DNA of 64,000 nt, taken from positions 37,816 to 101,815 of the forward strand of contig CAMNGP010000002.1 of assembly GCA_946538495.1 (NCBI GenBank), written 5' to 3'. The translations under genes were made by a program, and so were the position numbers. Position 1 is the stretch's first letter. The number at the start of each line of letters is the position of its first letter. Of this stretch, positions 10,820-52,366 are shown piece by piece. Source of the stretch: an uncultured Candidatus Saccharibacteria bacterium. GTDB taxonomy: Bacteria; Patescibacteriota; Saccharimonadia; Saccharimonadales; Saccharimonadaceae. A model generated the notes under the pieces. It was not told the origin of the DNA, searched no databases, and worked only from the letters and a program-made list of their open reading frames with translations.

Positions 10820-11878
10820 TCATCGCAAAAATCCGTTGATAATTTTGGATTCGGCTTGTTGCCTGGTGAGCCCTAGGGTCATAAGTTTAGTTAATTGATC
10901 GCCGGCGATTTTGCCGATGGCAGCTTCGTGAATTAGCTCAGCATCCTTAGTTTTAGCATCTAGGGCTGGTATAGCATGAACTTCTGCCTGATCCATCAAA
11001 ATAGCATCGCATTCTGAGTGACCACGACAAATATTATTCCCTATTATGGTGGCCCTGAAGGTTTGTTTTGATAAATCTTGGGCGACAGAGCGCGAAGCGA
11101 TGTCGGCAACGGAATTTTTGCCGTCTAATTCAACCTCGTAGATGCTTTCCGCAGCTTGGCGTCCATGGGTCATTAGACGCTCTTTAACGAAGATTTTTGC
11201 GTTATTTTTGGCAGTGGCGGTGGTTTTGCGAATAGTAGAGTCTACTCCTTTTATTTGTTCCATTTCGAGTTCAGCCGTGGCGCCATCTTCTAGATAAACT
11301 TCCGTGACAGGATTTAAAATTTTGCCACCCCTACCTGGCCCAAAACCATAATGTCTTTCAATGTATTTAATCTTAGAATTCTTACCAACATAAAACCTAT
11401 GTATGCCATCATGCACCGAATCTTCGGGTCCGCAATTATAAATGCCGCAGCCGGCAATAATAGTGGCTTCTACGTTTTCTTCAATATGAAAATCATTGTA
11501 AACAACCTCTTTGAGACCGGTTGCAGAAATTGCCACCGGGATGTGTACTGCTTCGTTTTTAGTGTCTTTTTTTATGTAGATGTCTAGACCTTTGCCGCCT
11601 TCTTTGGGCACTACGTTGATATTTTTAGTAGATTTTCGTCCAACGGATTTGCCATTGACGCGGAAATTGTAGGCACCCTCGGGAATTAGCTGAGATGATG
11701 TTTCTCGGGCCGCGTCGCTCGCTCCCGTCGACCCTGCGGGTCGTCCGCGTCCCAAGGGGCGGTCCGCCACGGGGCTCGCGCGCTCGTCCTCGCCTTGCCA
11801 GGCTCCGGATTCCCTCGAAACATCACTCTCGGCTAATATCTCACAAAAGATCTGTCTTTCCTCGTCAGTCAGTTTCAT
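10820..11878 (-). CDS. sufB: SufB/SufD-family Fe-S cluster assembly scaffold (carries an in-frame palindromic insertion)
   Basis: SufBD core: VEATIIAGCGIYNCGPEDSVHDGIHRFYVGKNSKIKYIERHYGFG, AEVHAIPALDAKTKDAELIHEAAIGKI. Confidence 0.85.
   Translation of the reverse strand: MKLTDEERQIFCEILAESDVSRESGAWQGEDERASPVADRPLGRGRPAGSTGASDAARETSSQLIPEGAYNFRVNGKSVGRKSTKNINVVPKEGGKGLDIYIKKDTKNEAVHIPVAISATGLKEVVYNDFHIEENVEATIIAGCGIYNCGPEDSVHDGIHRFYVGKNSKIKYIERHYGFGPGRGGKILNPVTEVYLEDGATAELEMEQIKGVDSTIRKTTATAKNNAKIFVKERLMTHGRQAAESIYEVELDGKNSVADIASRSVAQDLSKQTFRATIIGNNICRGHSECDAILMDQAEVHAIPALDAKTKDAELIHEAAIGKIAGDQLTKLMTLGLTRQQAESKIINGFLR
11697..11824. repeat. GC-rich palindromic element inserted in frame in sufB
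   Basis: Arms gatgtttctcggg / ccctcgaaacatc; internal hairpins cgaccctgcgggtcg and ggcggtccgcc; shares tcctcgccttgccaggctccgga with the argS element. Confidence 0.8.
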
Positions 11879-19260: not shown

Positions 19261-20808
19261 TTATTTGTCTGATTTCGCCTTTGGCTCCTTAGCTACTTCT
19301 TTTGGCTCAGCGTCTTTAGTTTGAGCTGCGTCTTTAGTTTCTTTTGGAGACTCTTCGGTTTTGGCAATTTCTTCACCTTTAGCTTTGCTCTCTACCTTGG
19401 CAAGAGTCTTCTTGGTGCGATAGAGATAATAACCGCCACCACCAATGCCGAGGATTACAACTACTGCCATCACGATTTCGAGCGGACCAGTGGACGGTAA
19501 CTCTTGACAGCCTTCCATTTCTGGGTTGGTTTTACAGTTTTTCTCTTGGCATTCTGGTAAATTTGGATTAGTGGTACAATCTTGGCATCCTGGCGCATCT
19601 GGATTAGTGGTACAATCCTGACATTCTGGTGCATCTGGATTCGTGGTACAGTCCACTACTGGATCTTCACAAGGCTCGGAAACTAAGACTGACGCTTGAT
19701 TCCCAAGTGTACCGTAACCACCGTCGGCCAATGCGTAATCCATATATACTGTATTAATTAGTCTTGAGGTGCCACAGGTTTTACCGTCAAATACTTCGTC
19801 GGTGATTTTGGCATCATATTCGATATACCAACCAGCTCCACCAACACTAAGTTGATAGGTTAATGCCCCATTCGACGTGAAAAAGTCGCCTGAAAGAGCT
19901 TCAGTTTTTTTGGCTCCACTGGTTGCCGTATCCTTAAATACTGCGTCAGATGCTGCAACCAGACCAGTAGGCAATTGGTCTTTGATAGCAATTTTTGTTG
20001 TGGCGATGCTGCCTAGGTTTTTAGCAACAACCTTATAATGAATCGTGTCGCCAACTTTGGCATTAATGTTATCATAGTAGTTTACGCCGTCAGTAGAAGC
20101 CATTTTGGAAAGATAAATTGAAGCTTGTTCTGCTTTAACTTTATAAATGATATATCCAGAATACTCTGCGCAGCCAGGTACTTTCCCGTCTAAGGTACAA
20201 TTTGTCTCGCCTTCAGCGCAATAACCTATTAATGCGCCCGAGGTAAACATATCTTCGCCAATTTTTGCCGTCGTTCTTCCGCCGTTCCAATAGATTGTTG
20301 CTGAATTATCTACATATCTTAGGCGTACGCCCACACTGGATTTATTGATAAAATCAGCTTCGTCCCATACGCTCGTCGGATTGGCATTTGAGGCAGAAAT
20401 TTTCGCGCCAGTTTCTGCGGTTGAGTCGCCAGATATTACTCCAGGAAAATAGGCAAAAACTTTCGTATTTTCGGCAGTTAGCTTATAGTTCGAAGCTGCA
20501 TTGTTATGATAAAACACATATACTTCAAACTCTTGACCATTTTTGGCGTCTGCGTCAGATATTTCAACTTGGTCTCTAAAGGTCGTTTCGCCAGCTTTAC
20601 GAACGCGAACAAAGTTTCTTTCATCACCAATACCAACAGATTCACTACTTTGATTATTAGTGATCGAATTAAACGTAACATACGTTGCTGGTTTATCCAT
20701 TTCAAAAGTTCTACGCTCTGGACCCCATGCCTGTGCAGCACATACACCCTGGAGCGCCAAAAGTATCGTAATAGCTATTCCACCCGTTTTTATGAAGATT
20801 TTCTTCAT
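19261..20808 (-). CDS. Secreted surface protein with DUF11-like repeats and LPSTG-type C-terminal anchor
   Basis: Signal peptide; YYDNINAKVGDTIHYKVVAKNLGS; CTTNPDAPECQ repeats; ELPSTGPLEIVMAVVVILGIGGGGYYLYRTKKT. Confidence 0.75.
   Translation of the reverse strand: MKKIFIKTGGIAITILLALQGVCAAQAWGPERRTFEMDKPATYVTFNSITNNQSSESVGIGDERNFVRVRKAGETTFRDQVEISDADAKNGQEFEVYVFYHNNAASNYKLTAENTKVFAYFPGVISGDSTAETGAKISASNANPTSVWDEADFINKSSVGVRLRYVDNSATIYWNGGRTTAKIGEDMFTSGALIGYCAEGETNCTLDGKVPGCAEYSGYIIYKVKAEQASIYLSKMASTDGVNYYDNINAKVGDTIHYKVVAKNLGSIATTKIAIKDQLPTGLVAASDAVFKDTATSGAKKTEALSGDFFTSNGALTYQLSVGGAGWYIEYDAKITDEVFDGKTCGTSRLINTVYMDYALADGGYGTLGNQASVLVSEPCEDPVVDCTTNPDAPECQDCTTNPDAPGCQDCTTNPNLPECQEKNCKTNPEMEGCQELPSTGPLEIVMAVVVILGIGGGGYYLYRTKKTLAKVESKAKGEEIAKTEESPKETKDAAQTKDAEPKEVAKEPKAKSDK
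19499..19655 (-). repeat. Tandem 36-nt-scale coding repeats encoding (D)CTTNPDAPECQ units
   Basis: Consecutive units DCTTNPDAPECQ / DCTTNPDAPGCQ / DCTTNPNLPECQ / NCKTNPEMEGCQ. Confidence 0.75.
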
Positions 20809-30040: not shown

Positions 30041-30131
30041 AGTAAGAATTCCTAAGCGTGCCCTGCGGGCACGCTCCAGGCCGCTCTAGCCAAGTCTTTA
30101 TGTCTCGTAGGACACCTTAGAAATTCTTACT
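30041..30131. repeat. Palindromic multi-hairpin intergenic element (type I)
   Basis: Arms agtaagaattcctaag / cttagaaattcttact; hairpin agcgtgccctgcgggcacgct; homologous to 31524, 36255, 40810 elements. Confidence 0.8.
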
Positions 30132-36254: not shown

Positions 36255-36344
36255 GAGAGATTTGCCAAGCGTGCCCTGCGGGCACGCTCTAGGCACGTTC
36301 TAGTCGAGTATTCGTGCCCCTTAGGAGAACTTAGCAAATTTCTC
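36255..36344. repeat. Palindromic multi-hairpin intergenic element (type I)
   Basis: Arms gagagatttgc / gcaaatttctc; hairpin agcgtgccctgcgggcacgct identical to that at 30054. Confidence 0.78.
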
Positions 36345-37371: not shown

Positions 37372-39795
37372 TTAGAGTTCGCCCCAGTTTTGACCGGTAG
37401 AGATTTCGACGGCAAGTTTAATATTTAGCTCGGGAGCAACGGATTCCATTTCTTGTTTTAGAATTCTTGCGACTCCTTGAACCTGGCTCTGGTCGCACTC
37501 CACAATTAAGGAATCGTGAACTTGCATAATTAGGTCTGCACCGCCTGGGAGCTTTTGATCTACTTTGATCATGGCGCGTTTCATGAGGTCAGCTTCAGTA
37601 CCCTGGATTGGCATATTCTCGGCCGCGCGTTCGGCAGCTTGACGAATCAAGAAATTGCTCGATTTGACGTCTGGCGTGGGGCGACGACGACCATAGAAGG
37701 TTTCGACATAGCCTTGTTCCCTGGCCTGCTTTAGTATTTCGTCTAATTTTTGCTTAATCGGTGCGCGCAGTTTAAAGTAATTATCGATGAATTGTTTGGC
37801 TTCGGCTATTGGCATTTTGGCGGCATCAGCGAGGCCCTTAACACTCATACCATAGAGAATGCCAAAATTAATAACTTTGGCAGCTCGACGCTGAGACTTA
37901 GTAACTTCGCTCATTGGAACTTTAAAGGCTTCGGAAGCGGTTTTAGTGTGGATATCTACGCCGTGATTAAAATCATCAATTAAGGCTCGATCGCCAGACA
38001 GAATGGCGGCGAGACGCAGTTCGAACTGCGAATAGTCTGCCGAAACCAACACTTTGCCAGCTGGTGCAATAAAACCAGCGCGAATACGTTTGCCCTCATC
38101 GGTGCGGACTGGAATGTTCTGCAGATTGGGATCTTTGGAGCTAAGGCGCCCAGTAGCGGTAACGTTTTGGGTGAAGGTAGTATGGATGCGATTATCTTCT
38201 CCAGCAAGACCAGGCATTGGAATTATGTAGGTGTTTAGCAACTTGGCGGCTTCACGGTATTCGATAATTTTTTGAATAATTGGATGAAGATCCTTTAGTT
38301 TATCTAATTCCTTAGCGCCGGTTGAATATCCGCGCGTAGTTTTTTTGATGCCACTAGCTGGAAGAGCCAACGTAGTGAAGAGAATTTCGGAAAGCTGAAC
38401 AGGAGAATTAACATTAAAATCCTTGCCAGCAAGAATACAGATTTCTCGTTCTAGCTTAGCAACTTCTTTGGTGTATTCCTCTTTGAGTTTTTCGAAGTAT
38501 TCACGATCGATCATCATTCCCTGCTTTTCCATTTTGTAAAGAATTGGGATTAGGGGCAAATCAAATTCAGTATATATATTATATAGTTTGGGATACTTTT
38601 GGAATTCTAAAAACTGCCTTTGACATTCGTCTTCAGGCGGAGTTAGCTGTGGTATTTCTCTGGCCAACGGATTTAGCAAGAAAGCAGCTTGGCCAAGATC
38701 CCAGTATTTTTTGCCACCTAAAATCTCGGAGGCAATTCTTTCATTGCTATGCATAGAGGATTTGACGTCCCAATCAATAATAATGGATGAATCAGAGATA
38801 ATATTCTCAAGGCCTGAACTATTATCGTTTCTGAGGTCGCGTCGCTCGCGCCCGTCGCCACGGGGCAAGTGCGTTAATTCTCGCGCCGCCGCGCTCCGAA
38901 CTCCCTCAGAAGCAGCACTAGCTTCAGGCTTATCCAGCTCTTTTTCGATTTTGCGAATGAGAGAGTTGAACTCGAGTTTTTTGAGGCCAGCTACAACTTG
39001 TTCATGATTAAACTTAAAATCTGGAATTTGCGACAAATCAACTGGAGCATCAAACATAATTTTGGCAAGATTTTTCGATAAATAAGCCGATTCCTTCCCT
39101 GCTTCAAGTTTGGCTTTCGTGGAACCAGTTATTTTATCTATATTATTATAGATATTATCTAGGTCACCAAAATCATTCAGAAGCTTGGCGGCAGTTTTTT
39201 CGCCAATACCAGGAACTCCAGGGATATTATCGGACGAATCGCCCTTCAAAGCTTTAAGATCTAGGAACTGAGATTTTTTGATGCCATACTTTGCCTCGAC
39301 TTCGGCGACGTCAATTTGTTCAATGTTAGAAAACCCTTTAAGAATGCGCCACATAAAAGTATTCTCGTCTACGATTTGTAACATATCTAAGTCAGAAGAA
39401 ATAATATAGGTTTCCCAATCTCCTGCATCATCGGCTTCACGAGAAAAAGTACCGATAATATCGTCGGCTTCATAATTATCGATTTCAACAAAATTCCAGC
39501 CGAGGTCACGAATCAGCGTCTCGAGTAGAGGTATTTGAGTATAAAAATCGTCACCAGGTTTAACGCGACCGGCTTTGTATTCGGGATATAGCTCGCGACG
39601 TTTAGAAACTGAAGTTTTGGAATCCCATGCCACTACGACTTTGGTAGGATTAAGCTTTTTAACGATTTCCATCGCAATTGCGGCAAAACCATAAACACCA
39701 CCAGTAGGAGTGCCATCTGAAAGCGACAATGCACCCATTGCGTAATATCCTCGGTAAAAAACCGATTTACCGTCTATCAAAACTAGTCTTTTCAT
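37372..39795 (-). CDS. polA: DNA polymerase I (carries palindromic insertion in inter-domain region)
   Basis: 5' nuclease VLIDGKSVFYRGYYAM; pol SADYSQFELRLAAILSGD, RRAAKVINFGILYGMS, QVHDSLIVEC. Confidence 0.95.
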   Translation of the reverse strand: MKRLVLIDGKSVFYRGYYAMGALSLSDGTPTGGVYGFAAIAMEIVKKLNPTKVVVAWDSKTSVSKRRELYPEYKAGRVKPGDDFYTQIPLLETLIRDLGWNFVEIDNYEADDIIGTFSREADDAGDWETYIISSDLDMLQIVDENTFMWRILKGFSNIEQIDVAEVEAKYGIKKSQFLDLKALKGDSSDNIPGVPGIGEKTAAKLLNDFGDLDNIYNNIDKITGSTKAKLEAGKESAYLSKNLAKIMFDAPVDLSQIPDFKFNHEQVVAGLKKLEFNSLIRKIEKELDKPEASAASEGVRSAAARELTHLPRGDGRERRDLRNDNSSGLENIISDSSIIIDWDVKSSMHSNERIASEILGGKKYWDLGQAAFLLNPLAREIPQLTPPEDECQRQFLEFQKYPKLYNIYTEFDLPLIPILYKMEKQGMMIDREYFEKLKEEYTKEVAKLEREICILAGKDFNVNSPVQLSEILFTTLALPASGIKKTTRGYSTGAKELDKLKDLHPIIQKIIEYREAAKLLNTYIIPMPGLAGEDNRIHTTFTQNVTATGRLSSKDPNLQNIPVRTDEGKRIRAGFIAPAGKVLVSADYSQFELRLAAILSGDRALIDDFNHGVDIHTKTASEAFKVPMSEVTKSQRRAAKVINFGILYGMSVKGLADAAKMPIAEAKQFIDNYFKLRAPIKQKLDEILKQAREQGYVETFYGRRRPTPDVKSSNFLIRQAAERAAENMPIQGTEADLMKRAMIKVDQKLPGGADLIMQVHDSLIVECDQSQVQGVARILKQEMESVAPELNIKLAVEISTGQNWGEL
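38813..38928. repeat. GC-rich palindromic element inserted in frame in polA
   Basis: Inner arms ttctgagg/cctcagaa, outer cctgaa/ttcagg; core gcgtcgctcgcgcccgtcgccacggg shared with the sufB/argS elements. Confidence 0.72.
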
Positions 39796-40809: not shown

Positions 40810-40913
40810 CATAGGAAAGTAAGAATTTTAACGTGCCCTTCGGGCACGTTCCGAGCCACTCGGGCCAAGTCCTTATGTCCCGCAGGACAGATTAAAATTC
40901 TTACTTTCCTATG
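40810..40913. repeat. Palindromic cloverleaf-like intergenic element (type I) between divergent -10 boxes
   Basis: 22-bp perfect arms cataggaaagtaagaattttaa / ttaaaattcttactttcctatg; three internal hairpins. Confidence 0.88.
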
Positions 40914-50635: not shown

Positions 50636-52366
50636 CTACATTTCCTCCGGGATTTTAATGCTTAGAATATTGAGGCCATGCGACATGACGTTTAGGAATG
50701 TTTGAACTAGCTTGATACGCTCTGATTCTTGCTCACTACCGGCAACCGGACAGTTTTCGTAGAAGCGGCTGAATTCTTGAGCGAGTTCATATAAATAATT
50801 TGCCAGTTTGTGAGGAGCCATTTCAGTGACTGCGTCGTCTAGGACTGCTTTGTACTCAAGGATTTTTTTGATTAAATTCTTCTCTGCGCGGGGCCTGGTG
50901 GATATTTTCACCTCGGGGGCGCGTCCGGCCGGCCCGTCGCCACGGGCGACCGGCGCTAATCCTCGCCTTGCCAGGCTCCGGACCCCCCTTCGGTCGGAAA
51001 TATCCGCCACCCGCGCAGAGTTGGATTTATCCAAGATTTTCTTGGCGCGGACGCAGGAGTAGAGAAGGTAGGGACCGGAGTTGCCGGTCATTTTAACTGA
51101 TTCTTTAGGATCGAAGATGATGTTACCGCCCATTTTGTATTTTAGAAATGCATATTTGGTGGCAGCTAGAGCCACAATCTCGTCAGTAGAATCATACTCG
51201 GATTTTAATTCATCTTTAACCATGTCTAAAACATCGACGGCTTTCAAGAAATTGCCTTTACGGGATGACATTTTAACGTTGCCGGGGAGTTTAACTAGGC
51301 CGTGAATCAGGTGGTTGGTTTTGGCAACCAATTCTGGGGCATATTGTTCGATGGATTTTAATACAACCTTCATATAATCCAATTGTTCGCTACCAGTAAT
51401 AACGACGGATTTATCAAAATGATAGTCTTGCCATTTTGTAAAGATTAGGCCGACATCCTTTGCTTCGTAGGTTGGTACGCCTTCGCTGTTTATAAAGACA
51501 CGTGTATGAAGGCCAAACTTTTCGCCATCAAAGATGACGGCACCATTGCTTATCTCGTATACACCTTTTTCTAGCTGTTCTTTGACTGTTTTCAGACCTA
51601 GAGCTGCAACGGTGGATTCAGGGTAATACTTATCGAACTTTAGACCAATACTAGCATAGAAATTTTCAAAATAAGCATAGGATAATTCCCTGCCTTTCCA
51701 GTATAATTTGGCGAGGTCGGTATTATGGAGATCTTCGGCATTAATCTTGTATATTTCTTTGTTGAGTTCTGTGATGGCTTTTTTGGCATTTTCATCATCT
51801 TCGTAAGCTGCGGTGCCTTCGACATAGCATTTGCCAATATCTTCTATTTTTAGATCTTTGATATCTTTTTGCTGGAGGGCATACATAGTTTTAGCGACAT
51901 GAAGTCCGACGTCACCACCAAAATTAGCTCGGATTACTTTGGCGCCAGCATATTCAAACAGCTTACCAATTGAGTCGCCAACGATTGAAGTATACAAATG
52001 GCCAACATGTAGGACTTTAAAGGGATTTGGATCACTGAATTCACAAATTACAGTTTTGTCTTTAAAAGTATTAGAGGAAATAGTCTTTGCAAAATCTTGA
52101 ACAAGGTTGTTGATGCTTTCCTCTAGAAAATCGTCTGACAATGTAAAATTTAGAAAACCAGGATTTGAGATATTTGCATCTAAAGTTTTATTTAATTCCT
52201 CGGCGATAGCCATTGGAGATTTATGTAGTTCTTTTGCAAGTTTGAGTGGCGCATTTGAAGAATAATCTGCATCGATGTTGTCTGGGGATGGCGTAATGTC
52301 TGGCTCAAAATCTAAGCCGTATAATTTTTTGATAGCGGTTTGTAGTCGTTCTTTAATATCTTGCAT
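50636..52366 (-). CDS. argS: Arginyl-tRNA synthetase (carries palindromic insertion)
   Basis: FSDPNPFKVLHVGHLYTSIVGDSIGKLFEYAGAKVIRANFGGDVGLH, KMSSRKGNFLKAVDVLD; DALR C-terminus. Confidence 0.95.
   Translation of the reverse strand: MQDIKERLQTAIKKLYGLDFEPDITPSPDNIDADYSSNAPLKLAKELHKSPMAIAEELNKTLDANISNPGFLNFTLSDDFLEESINNLVQDFAKTISSNTFKDKTVICEFSDPNPFKVLHVGHLYTSIVGDSIGKLFEYAGAKVIRANFGGDVGLHVAKTMYALQQKDIKDLKIEDIGKCYVEGTAAYEDDENAKKAITELNKEIYKINAEDLHNTDLAKLYWKGRELSYAYFENFYASIGLKFDKYYPESTVAALGLKTVKEQLEKGVYEISNGAVIFDGEKFGLHTRVFINSEGVPTYEAKDVGLIFTKWQDYHFDKSVVITGSEQLDYMKVVLKSIEQYAPELVAKTNHLIHGLVKLPGNVKMSSRKGNFLKAVDVLDMVKDELKSEYDSTDEIVALAATKYAFLKYKMGGNIIFDPKESVKMTGNSGPYLLYSCVRAKKILDKSNSARVADISDRRGVRSLARRGLAPVARGDGPAGRAPEVKISTRPRAEKNLIKKILEYKAVLDDAVTEMAPHKLANYLYELAQEFSRFYENCPVAGSEQESERIKLVQTFLNVMSHGLNILSIKIPEEM
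50882..51020. repeat. GC-rich palindromic element inserted in frame in argS
   Basis: Arms ctctgcgcggggcctggtggatattt / aaatatccgccacccgcgcagag; shares tcctcgccttgccaggctccgga with the sufB element. Confidence 0.85.

Follow-up and report, generated by a model that had tools for sequence, protein, structure and literature searches.

Palindromic elements that lie in frame within protein-coding genes are known from Rickettsia (RPE; described in PMC10969869). They are hairpin-forming inserts of about 100–150 bp, fall into several families, and are found both in intergenic DNA and, in frame, inside unrelated and essential genes. Their arms are described as the element's own, with an identity that is lost over time, in PMC6649704 (citing its reference 7). 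Wolbachia palindromic elements (WPE-like) are found in addA, addB and priA (PMC4224334), where stop-free inserts lie in frame within functional genes and the genome is a reduced one. In the mitochondria of Nematomorpha, coding palindromes are maintained at the DNA level, and template switching has been proposed for them (PMC6649704). The byp elements of Magnusiomyces mitochondria are also palindromic and interrupt protein genes, and are not translated (mentioned in PMC6649704). REP/RAYT elements and MITEs are short GC-rich palindromes present in many copies; the former are extragenic and the latter have common terminal inverted repeats.

An element of Candidatus Saccharibacteria, here studied in the gene for arginine--tRNA ligase (argS), shares several properties with these systems. 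Like RPE and WPE, it is a hairpin-forming palindrome of about 100–150 bp, it belongs among several palindromic families, and it lies between genes or in frame in many unrelated and essential genes, which stay open. It differs from RPE in its host, in its use of all six reading frames, in a conserved branched core, in the repeated use of the same sites in sister genomes, and in its arms, which are not common to the copies but copy-specific and seemingly inverted copies of a host flank. Wolbachia belongs to another phylum, and neither host-derived arms nor this core is described for WPE in PMC4224334. In Nematomorpha, inverted repeats likewise lie within coding genes and are held at the DNA level, but both arms encode conserved protein and there is no common inserted core, whereas here a mobile core lies between the arms. 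Unlike the byp elements, this one leaves the reading frame open from end to end. Unlike REP/RAYT elements and MITEs, 87% of the copies (197 of 227) are intragenic, the arms differ from copy to copy, and the good genomes of the genus have no RAYT. The Saccharibacteria element works like RPE and WPE and is set beside them by description, not by sequence homology; with arms that the copies do not share, it is not filed as a member. The stem seems to be made by backward copying of neighboring host sequence, which is not reported for known coding hairpin elements. In the full-text literature outside most subscription journals, no paper was found with both Saccharibacteria and palindromic elements, and a search for "inverted target site duplication" gave an off-topic match only.

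The argS locus lies in a 64,000-nt stretch of contig CAMNGP010000002.1, which is referred to as the window; its features are collected in Table 1. As single-stranded DNA the 139 nt of the argS element fold at −47.7 kcal/mol, compared to −31.1 ± 3.1 kcal/mol for dinucleotide shuffles (z −5.3; 0 of 200), and the argS reading frame is free of stops across it, encoding the peptide SARVADISDRRGVRSLARRGLAPVARGDGPAGRAPEVKISTRPRAE. An earlier sequence-only reading had proposed just such an in-frame palindromic element, and the arms it drew, with a 3-nt bulge and one wobble, were obtained again when the pairing was recomputed. Its placement of the segment between the catalytic part and the C-terminal DALR region agrees with the Pfam domains (DALR_1, residues 434–575) and with Escherichia coli ArgRS (4OBY); the insert precedes the C-terminal helices of that region. 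The palindrome does extend over 139 nt, as that reading had it, and its repeated part is narrower, a core of about 76 nt with copy-specific arms outside it. A stretch held in common with a copy in a gene named sufB was also borne out: CTCGCCTTGCCAGGCTCCG occurs exactly at 11789 and 50962, with a chance expectation of 0.01, and the frames differ. That gene encodes a SufB/SufD-core protein (PF01458), and its best equivalog is sufD, below the cutoff.

Table 1. Positions of the argS element, its parts and related features (window coordinates unless a locus number is given).
Feature	Position	Strand	Basis
argS, arginine--tRNA ligase, 576 aa, host gene	50636..52366	-	ORF; TIGR00456 1.3e-92; Pfam catalytic, DALR and N-terminal domains; homologous to 4OBY
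Entire argS palindromic element, arms and core	50882..51020	+ (antisense to argS, in frame)	fold; open frame
Left arm, copy-specific (CTCTGCGCGGGGCCTGGTGGATATTT), with GGGGCCTG at 50890-50897	50882..50907	+	pairing; resembles boundary motif GGGTCCTG
Right arm, copy-specific (AAATATCCGCCACCCGCGCAGAG), with CCACCC, the boundary-motif partner, at 51007-51012	50998..51020	+	pairing
GC-rich core, conserved, common to all copies	50913..50989 (approx.)	+	profile match 50915-50989, 6e-17; covariance-model match G000:C2:88727-88806, 3.1e-15
Core hairpin P2, conserved CGCC loop	50921..50956	+	covariation: double-sided changes in 10/15 pairs, 95.2% paired
Core hairpin P3, conserved TGCC loop	50960..50982	+	covariation: helices 3 and 4 paired 91.4% and 98.7%
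polA, second host	37372..39795	-	Pfam PF00476, PF02739, PF01367
polA-linker copy (core 38832-38907)	38827..38915	+ (antisense, in frame)	profile match
SufB/SufD-core protein gene, third host	10820..11878	-	PF01458 1.8e-23; TIGR01981 1.5e-21 (below cutoff)
SufB/SufD copy near N-terminus (core 11705-11817, including an inner extension of ~36 nt)	11685..11837	+ (antisense, in frame)	profile match
Boundary-motif loci	50890-50897 and 51007-51012; L044, L047, L286, L302, L308, L333, L361, L363, L083, L384		

The aligned cores form a three-way, branched structure, with a base stem and two hairpins with the conserved CGCC and TGCC loops. Of the cells in the alignment 94.8% are paired, and double-sided cells number 202 compared to 62.5 after shuffling (0 of 500). 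The pairs are nearly all of the Watson-Crick kind. No Rfam family matches the core, including any intron or ribozyme. By BLAST it is present in 22 of 60 relatives, every one a congener. With a covariance model, scoring no more than 11 candidates in each genome, 92 of the 393 genomes in the order gave a match, within one family and 3 of 156 genera; the carrier family is that of the Nanosyncoccus lineage of Ca. Saccharibacteria. A scan of GTDB contigs for the exact pattern gave at least 119 stretches, and among the 80 scan matches listed all were from Candidatus Saccharibacteria, mostly of the ruminant gut, including Ca. Nanosyncoccus alces. Viral contigs contained no exact match to the core pattern, and carriage of the element by phage was rejected on that ground.

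Three copies of the core lie within the window, at least 11 in the source genome and 227, after removal of redundancy, among the loci analyzed. Searches with the element identified as hosts in the source genome, besides argS, a methyltransferase gene, tgt, queA (two copies), lepA, polA and the SufB/SufD gene; further hosts encode TrmD, MnmA, TatD, cysteine desulfurase, TruB, LigA, LeuS and Der. This dispersal through unrelated genes supports the kinship with other coding copies that had been suggested for the argS segment. The nearest core came from the same genome in 37.5% of cases, compared to 6.4% with shuffled labels, and this resemblance above expectation fits a recent spread. The P2 loop of the SufB/SufD copy is enlarged by a further hairpin, some 36 nt long (GACCCTGCGGGTCGTCCGCGTCCCAAGGGGCGG); L067, L089, L245 and L367 have similar extensions. 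The window also has a short GC-rich intergenic hairpin in three copies (30045-30081, 36258-36294 and 40820-40856; GTGCCC-GGGCAC, then CTC-AGGC and AAGTC), whose ends resemble those of another, gene-internal element family (GCTCGCCCAAGTCTTAGGCC), and a 36-nt repeat, three in tandem, at 19544-19651 (TCTTGGCATTCTGG..GGATTAGTGGTACAA).

On either side of the core every copy has its own arms, about 18 nt long, which are complementary to one another but not to those of other copies. The mean score for pairing within a copy was 36.6 for coding and 37.5 for noncoding copies, compared to 13.3 ± 3.5 for arms swapped between copies, and 95% of the coding and 100% of the noncoding copies exceeded the 99th percentile of the swaps. 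Pairing is 92–95% at 12–18 nt from the core and falls to about 60% at 22 nt. In the coding strand, the arm mismatches comprise 68 G-U and 83 A-C; since G-U is no commoner than A-C, the pairing arises in DNA and is not kept by the mRNA, and structure at the mRNA level was rejected as its cause.

The origin of the arms was approached in trmD, mnmA, queA and tgt, where blocks of conserved codons were defined by regular expressions from empty orthologs. Among 40 copies in these four genes, the left arm alone reached conserved host codons in 17, the right alone in 5, both in 2 and neither in 16, the last being uninformative as to direction, so that the overlap was one-sided in 22 of 24 informative cases. 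The right arm in trmD (L078/L368) is a backward repeat of the codons for the conserved AR-F-A block. Copies in mnmA differ in this respect: L069/L276 have the left block copied, and L310/L399/L403 the right VRLR block. The median arm in the four genes is 18 nt and the median added length 91.5 nt, with a core of about 76–80 nt. Pairs of filled and empty orthologs have an inverted copy of one flank, and the hosts are too diverged for the alignment of short direct repeats. These comparisons indicate that a host flank was probably copied in inverted form to give one of the arms, and they give good support to an insertion that adds the core and roughly one arm, leaving one arm as ancestral flank and the other as a new inverted copy. 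The argS linker is too variable for either of its arms to be assigned to the ancestral flank.

The complementarity of the arms could instead postdate the insertion and be due to template switching at quasi-palindromes or to selection, which is unlikely but is the most serious of the alternatives. Template switching is known to homogenize arms and to invert spacers in coding DNA (PMC8604942, PMC8794818); the gradual fading of the pairing past 20 nt is consistent with such a process, as are the paired changes between L161 and L159, which have a homologous insertion in queA. On the other side, the added length is near that of the core plus one arm, and, set against the ancestral linker, the arm is different as one block, as a single event predicts. 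Part of the arm pairing may nevertheless represent later homogenization, not made at insertion.

Of lower probability is the view that a resident transposase moves a classical MITE or REP-type element and that the arms are ordinary terminal repeats which have drifted apart between copies. It would account for the high copy number of an element without its own coding capacity, and for the short inverted termini next to the core, where about 8 nt are common to the copies (TTCTCGGG/CCCTCGAA). Beyond these 8 nt, the arms are unlike between copies yet paired within them, and they overlap conserved host codons on one side. The search for a mobilizer covered the Y1 and reverse transcriptase families. 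None of the 26 good genomes in the genus had a Y1/RAYT transposase, which was present in one low-quality genome only; reverse transcriptase was lacking in genomes that are nearly complete and rich in the element, G004 and G026 among them. Both were rejected as the mobilizer, being missing from element-rich genomes. Reverse transcriptase genes were seen in 50 of 80 genomes of the genus, yet are missing from several that are rich in the element.

The core is dispersed both ways round in essential genes, and nearly all coding copies keep the frame. The copies inside genes occupy ORFs that are 180 aa or longer and open across the element, 89 in sense and 108 in antisense; as a coding copy has an open frame by definition, this count is partly circular. 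All six frames are used, including one in which 155 of 224 cores have a stop. The remaining 30 copies are intergenic, several of them between convergent genes, and provide a non-circular check, which is blind to copies in genes already lost: no neighboring ORF enters the core and stops there (0 of 30 truncations). Many of the intergenic copies (L055, L046, L223, L233, L252 and L246) lie between convergent genes within a few nt of both stop codons, and such copies might act as terminators.

A very doubtful explanation is that the element is removed from the product, either as an mRNA intron or by translational bypass as in Magnusiomyces mitochondria, with the arms joining the junctions. The flanking codons would be brought side by side by a long hairpin whose arms are specific to the copy, and the conserved branched core also speaks for removal. 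It is opposed by the occupation of both orientations and six frames, by coding copies that are free of stops in frames where the core often has them, by the lack of a G-U excess in transcribed arms, by the equally good arms of intergenic copies and by the failure to match an Rfam intron or ribozyme; bypass is also opposed, indirectly, by the 30 copies outside ORFs, which truncate no gene. The evidence favors translation of the argS insert as part of the enzyme, a reading of the sequence that would have it remain in the protein.

Empty and filled orthologs were compared for several hosts. In the genus, many argS orthologs have a linker of 12–18 aa, a few have this core, and others have different inserts at the same place, in other frames and from other element families. 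Between the conserved blocks of trmD there are 3–7 aa in empty and 34–44 in filled orthologs, and trmD of the window's own genome is empty. Empty and filled orthologs are found alike for mnmA, queA and tgt, and also for polA. One site is filled in opposite orientations in different genomes, and identical sites are used recurrently across sister genomes. Orthologs that are empty, filled or otherwise filled, together with the two orientations, show an insert that is not conserved and not fixed by vertical descent.

The same sites hold several unrelated palindromic families (argS, L098-L102; trmD, L380, L381, L384 and L393; mnmA, L327, L344 and L348; queA, L158-L160). The peptides of such inserts include STSYAGTPAEPSLRDEPVGSVRNIRVENSN, EEHNRRRGDYGATEARNDGPEGAFRE and SREGYDPSEESEARDDGPERTG, and other palindromic cores in these hot spots encode peptides of the STSYAG-, DYGATE- and REGYDPSE- types.

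Recurrence of sites in different genomes would also be seen if the element entered natural hairpins that were already present, both arms being ancestral, and one empty queA ortholog (L177) is indeed palindromic. In most empty queA orthologs the site has no more palindromic character than the rest of the gene, for which reason pre-existing hairpins were rejected as the target; conserved codons are reached on both sides in just 2 of 40 copies, and the extra length of filled genes exceeds that of the core. This explanation is highly improbable, slightly more so than removal from the product. The recurrence of various inserts at the linker in several genomes might have pointed to a conserved domain of ArgRS or to a protein insertion specific to the lineage. 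This is refuted by the many congeners without it and can be dismissed, as other frames and element families occupy the same site, the same DNA is present in unrelated genes, and ArgS, TrmD, MnmA, QueA and Tgt all have empty sister orthologs, so that the insert is not a conserved domain.

Within ArgRS, 41 residues occupy the site, compared to 13 in the E. coli enzyme (4OBY). The net gain over empty orthologs is about 33 codons rather than 46. Structure prediction gives residues 458–487 as disordered, with pLDDT of 34–46, between helices at 430–459 and 492–502; owing to a shallow alignment, the catalytic domain of this model is also of low confidence in places. The insert is probably a disordered linker of about 33 residues that would join the catalytic and anticodon-binding domains.

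Taken jointly, a mobile, non-autonomous, protein-coding palindromic element of Nanosyncoccus-lineage Saccharibacteria, with one arm copied from the host flank and with its argS copy translated as an ArgRS linker, is the likely explanation. At insertion, the self-complementary ends of the core could allow a strand under synthesis to fold back on itself and to copy the flank just made, by a template switch. Alternatively, hairpins might cap the break and then be opened off-center, much as the P nucleotides of V(D)J joining arise by off-center opening of hairpin-capped ends. Only an insertion that preserves the frame and falls in a tolerant loop would survive. Fold-back template switching is known to create and homogenize inverted repeats (PMC8794818, PMC8604942).

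A boundary motif, GGGTCCTG...CCACCC, is found at a fixed distance around 13 core copies, among them argS in the GGGGCCTG form, and it also surrounds other element families. It could delimit either a larger unit or the process of insertion. A broader and tentative proposal, less probable than the explanation preferred above, is a class of mobile elements with inverted rather than direct target duplication, in which hairpin ends would prime the copying of the flank on either side and give private stems. Several unrelated core families would share this mode and the boundary motif, jointly adding disordered peptides to essential proteins throughout the family.

Coding palindromic elements were known before from Rickettsia and Wolbachia; here there is a large, recently active set in one ultra-small, gene-poor lineage of Saccharibacteria. 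Reduced genomes can hold many in-frame peptide inserts in tRNA synthetases, tRNA-modifying enzymes, polymerases and ligases and still retain the genes. With hundreds of copies and empty sister orthologs, the mode of insertion and the tolerance of the proteins are directly testable, and the apparently host-derived arms point to a specific and unusual insertion chemistry.
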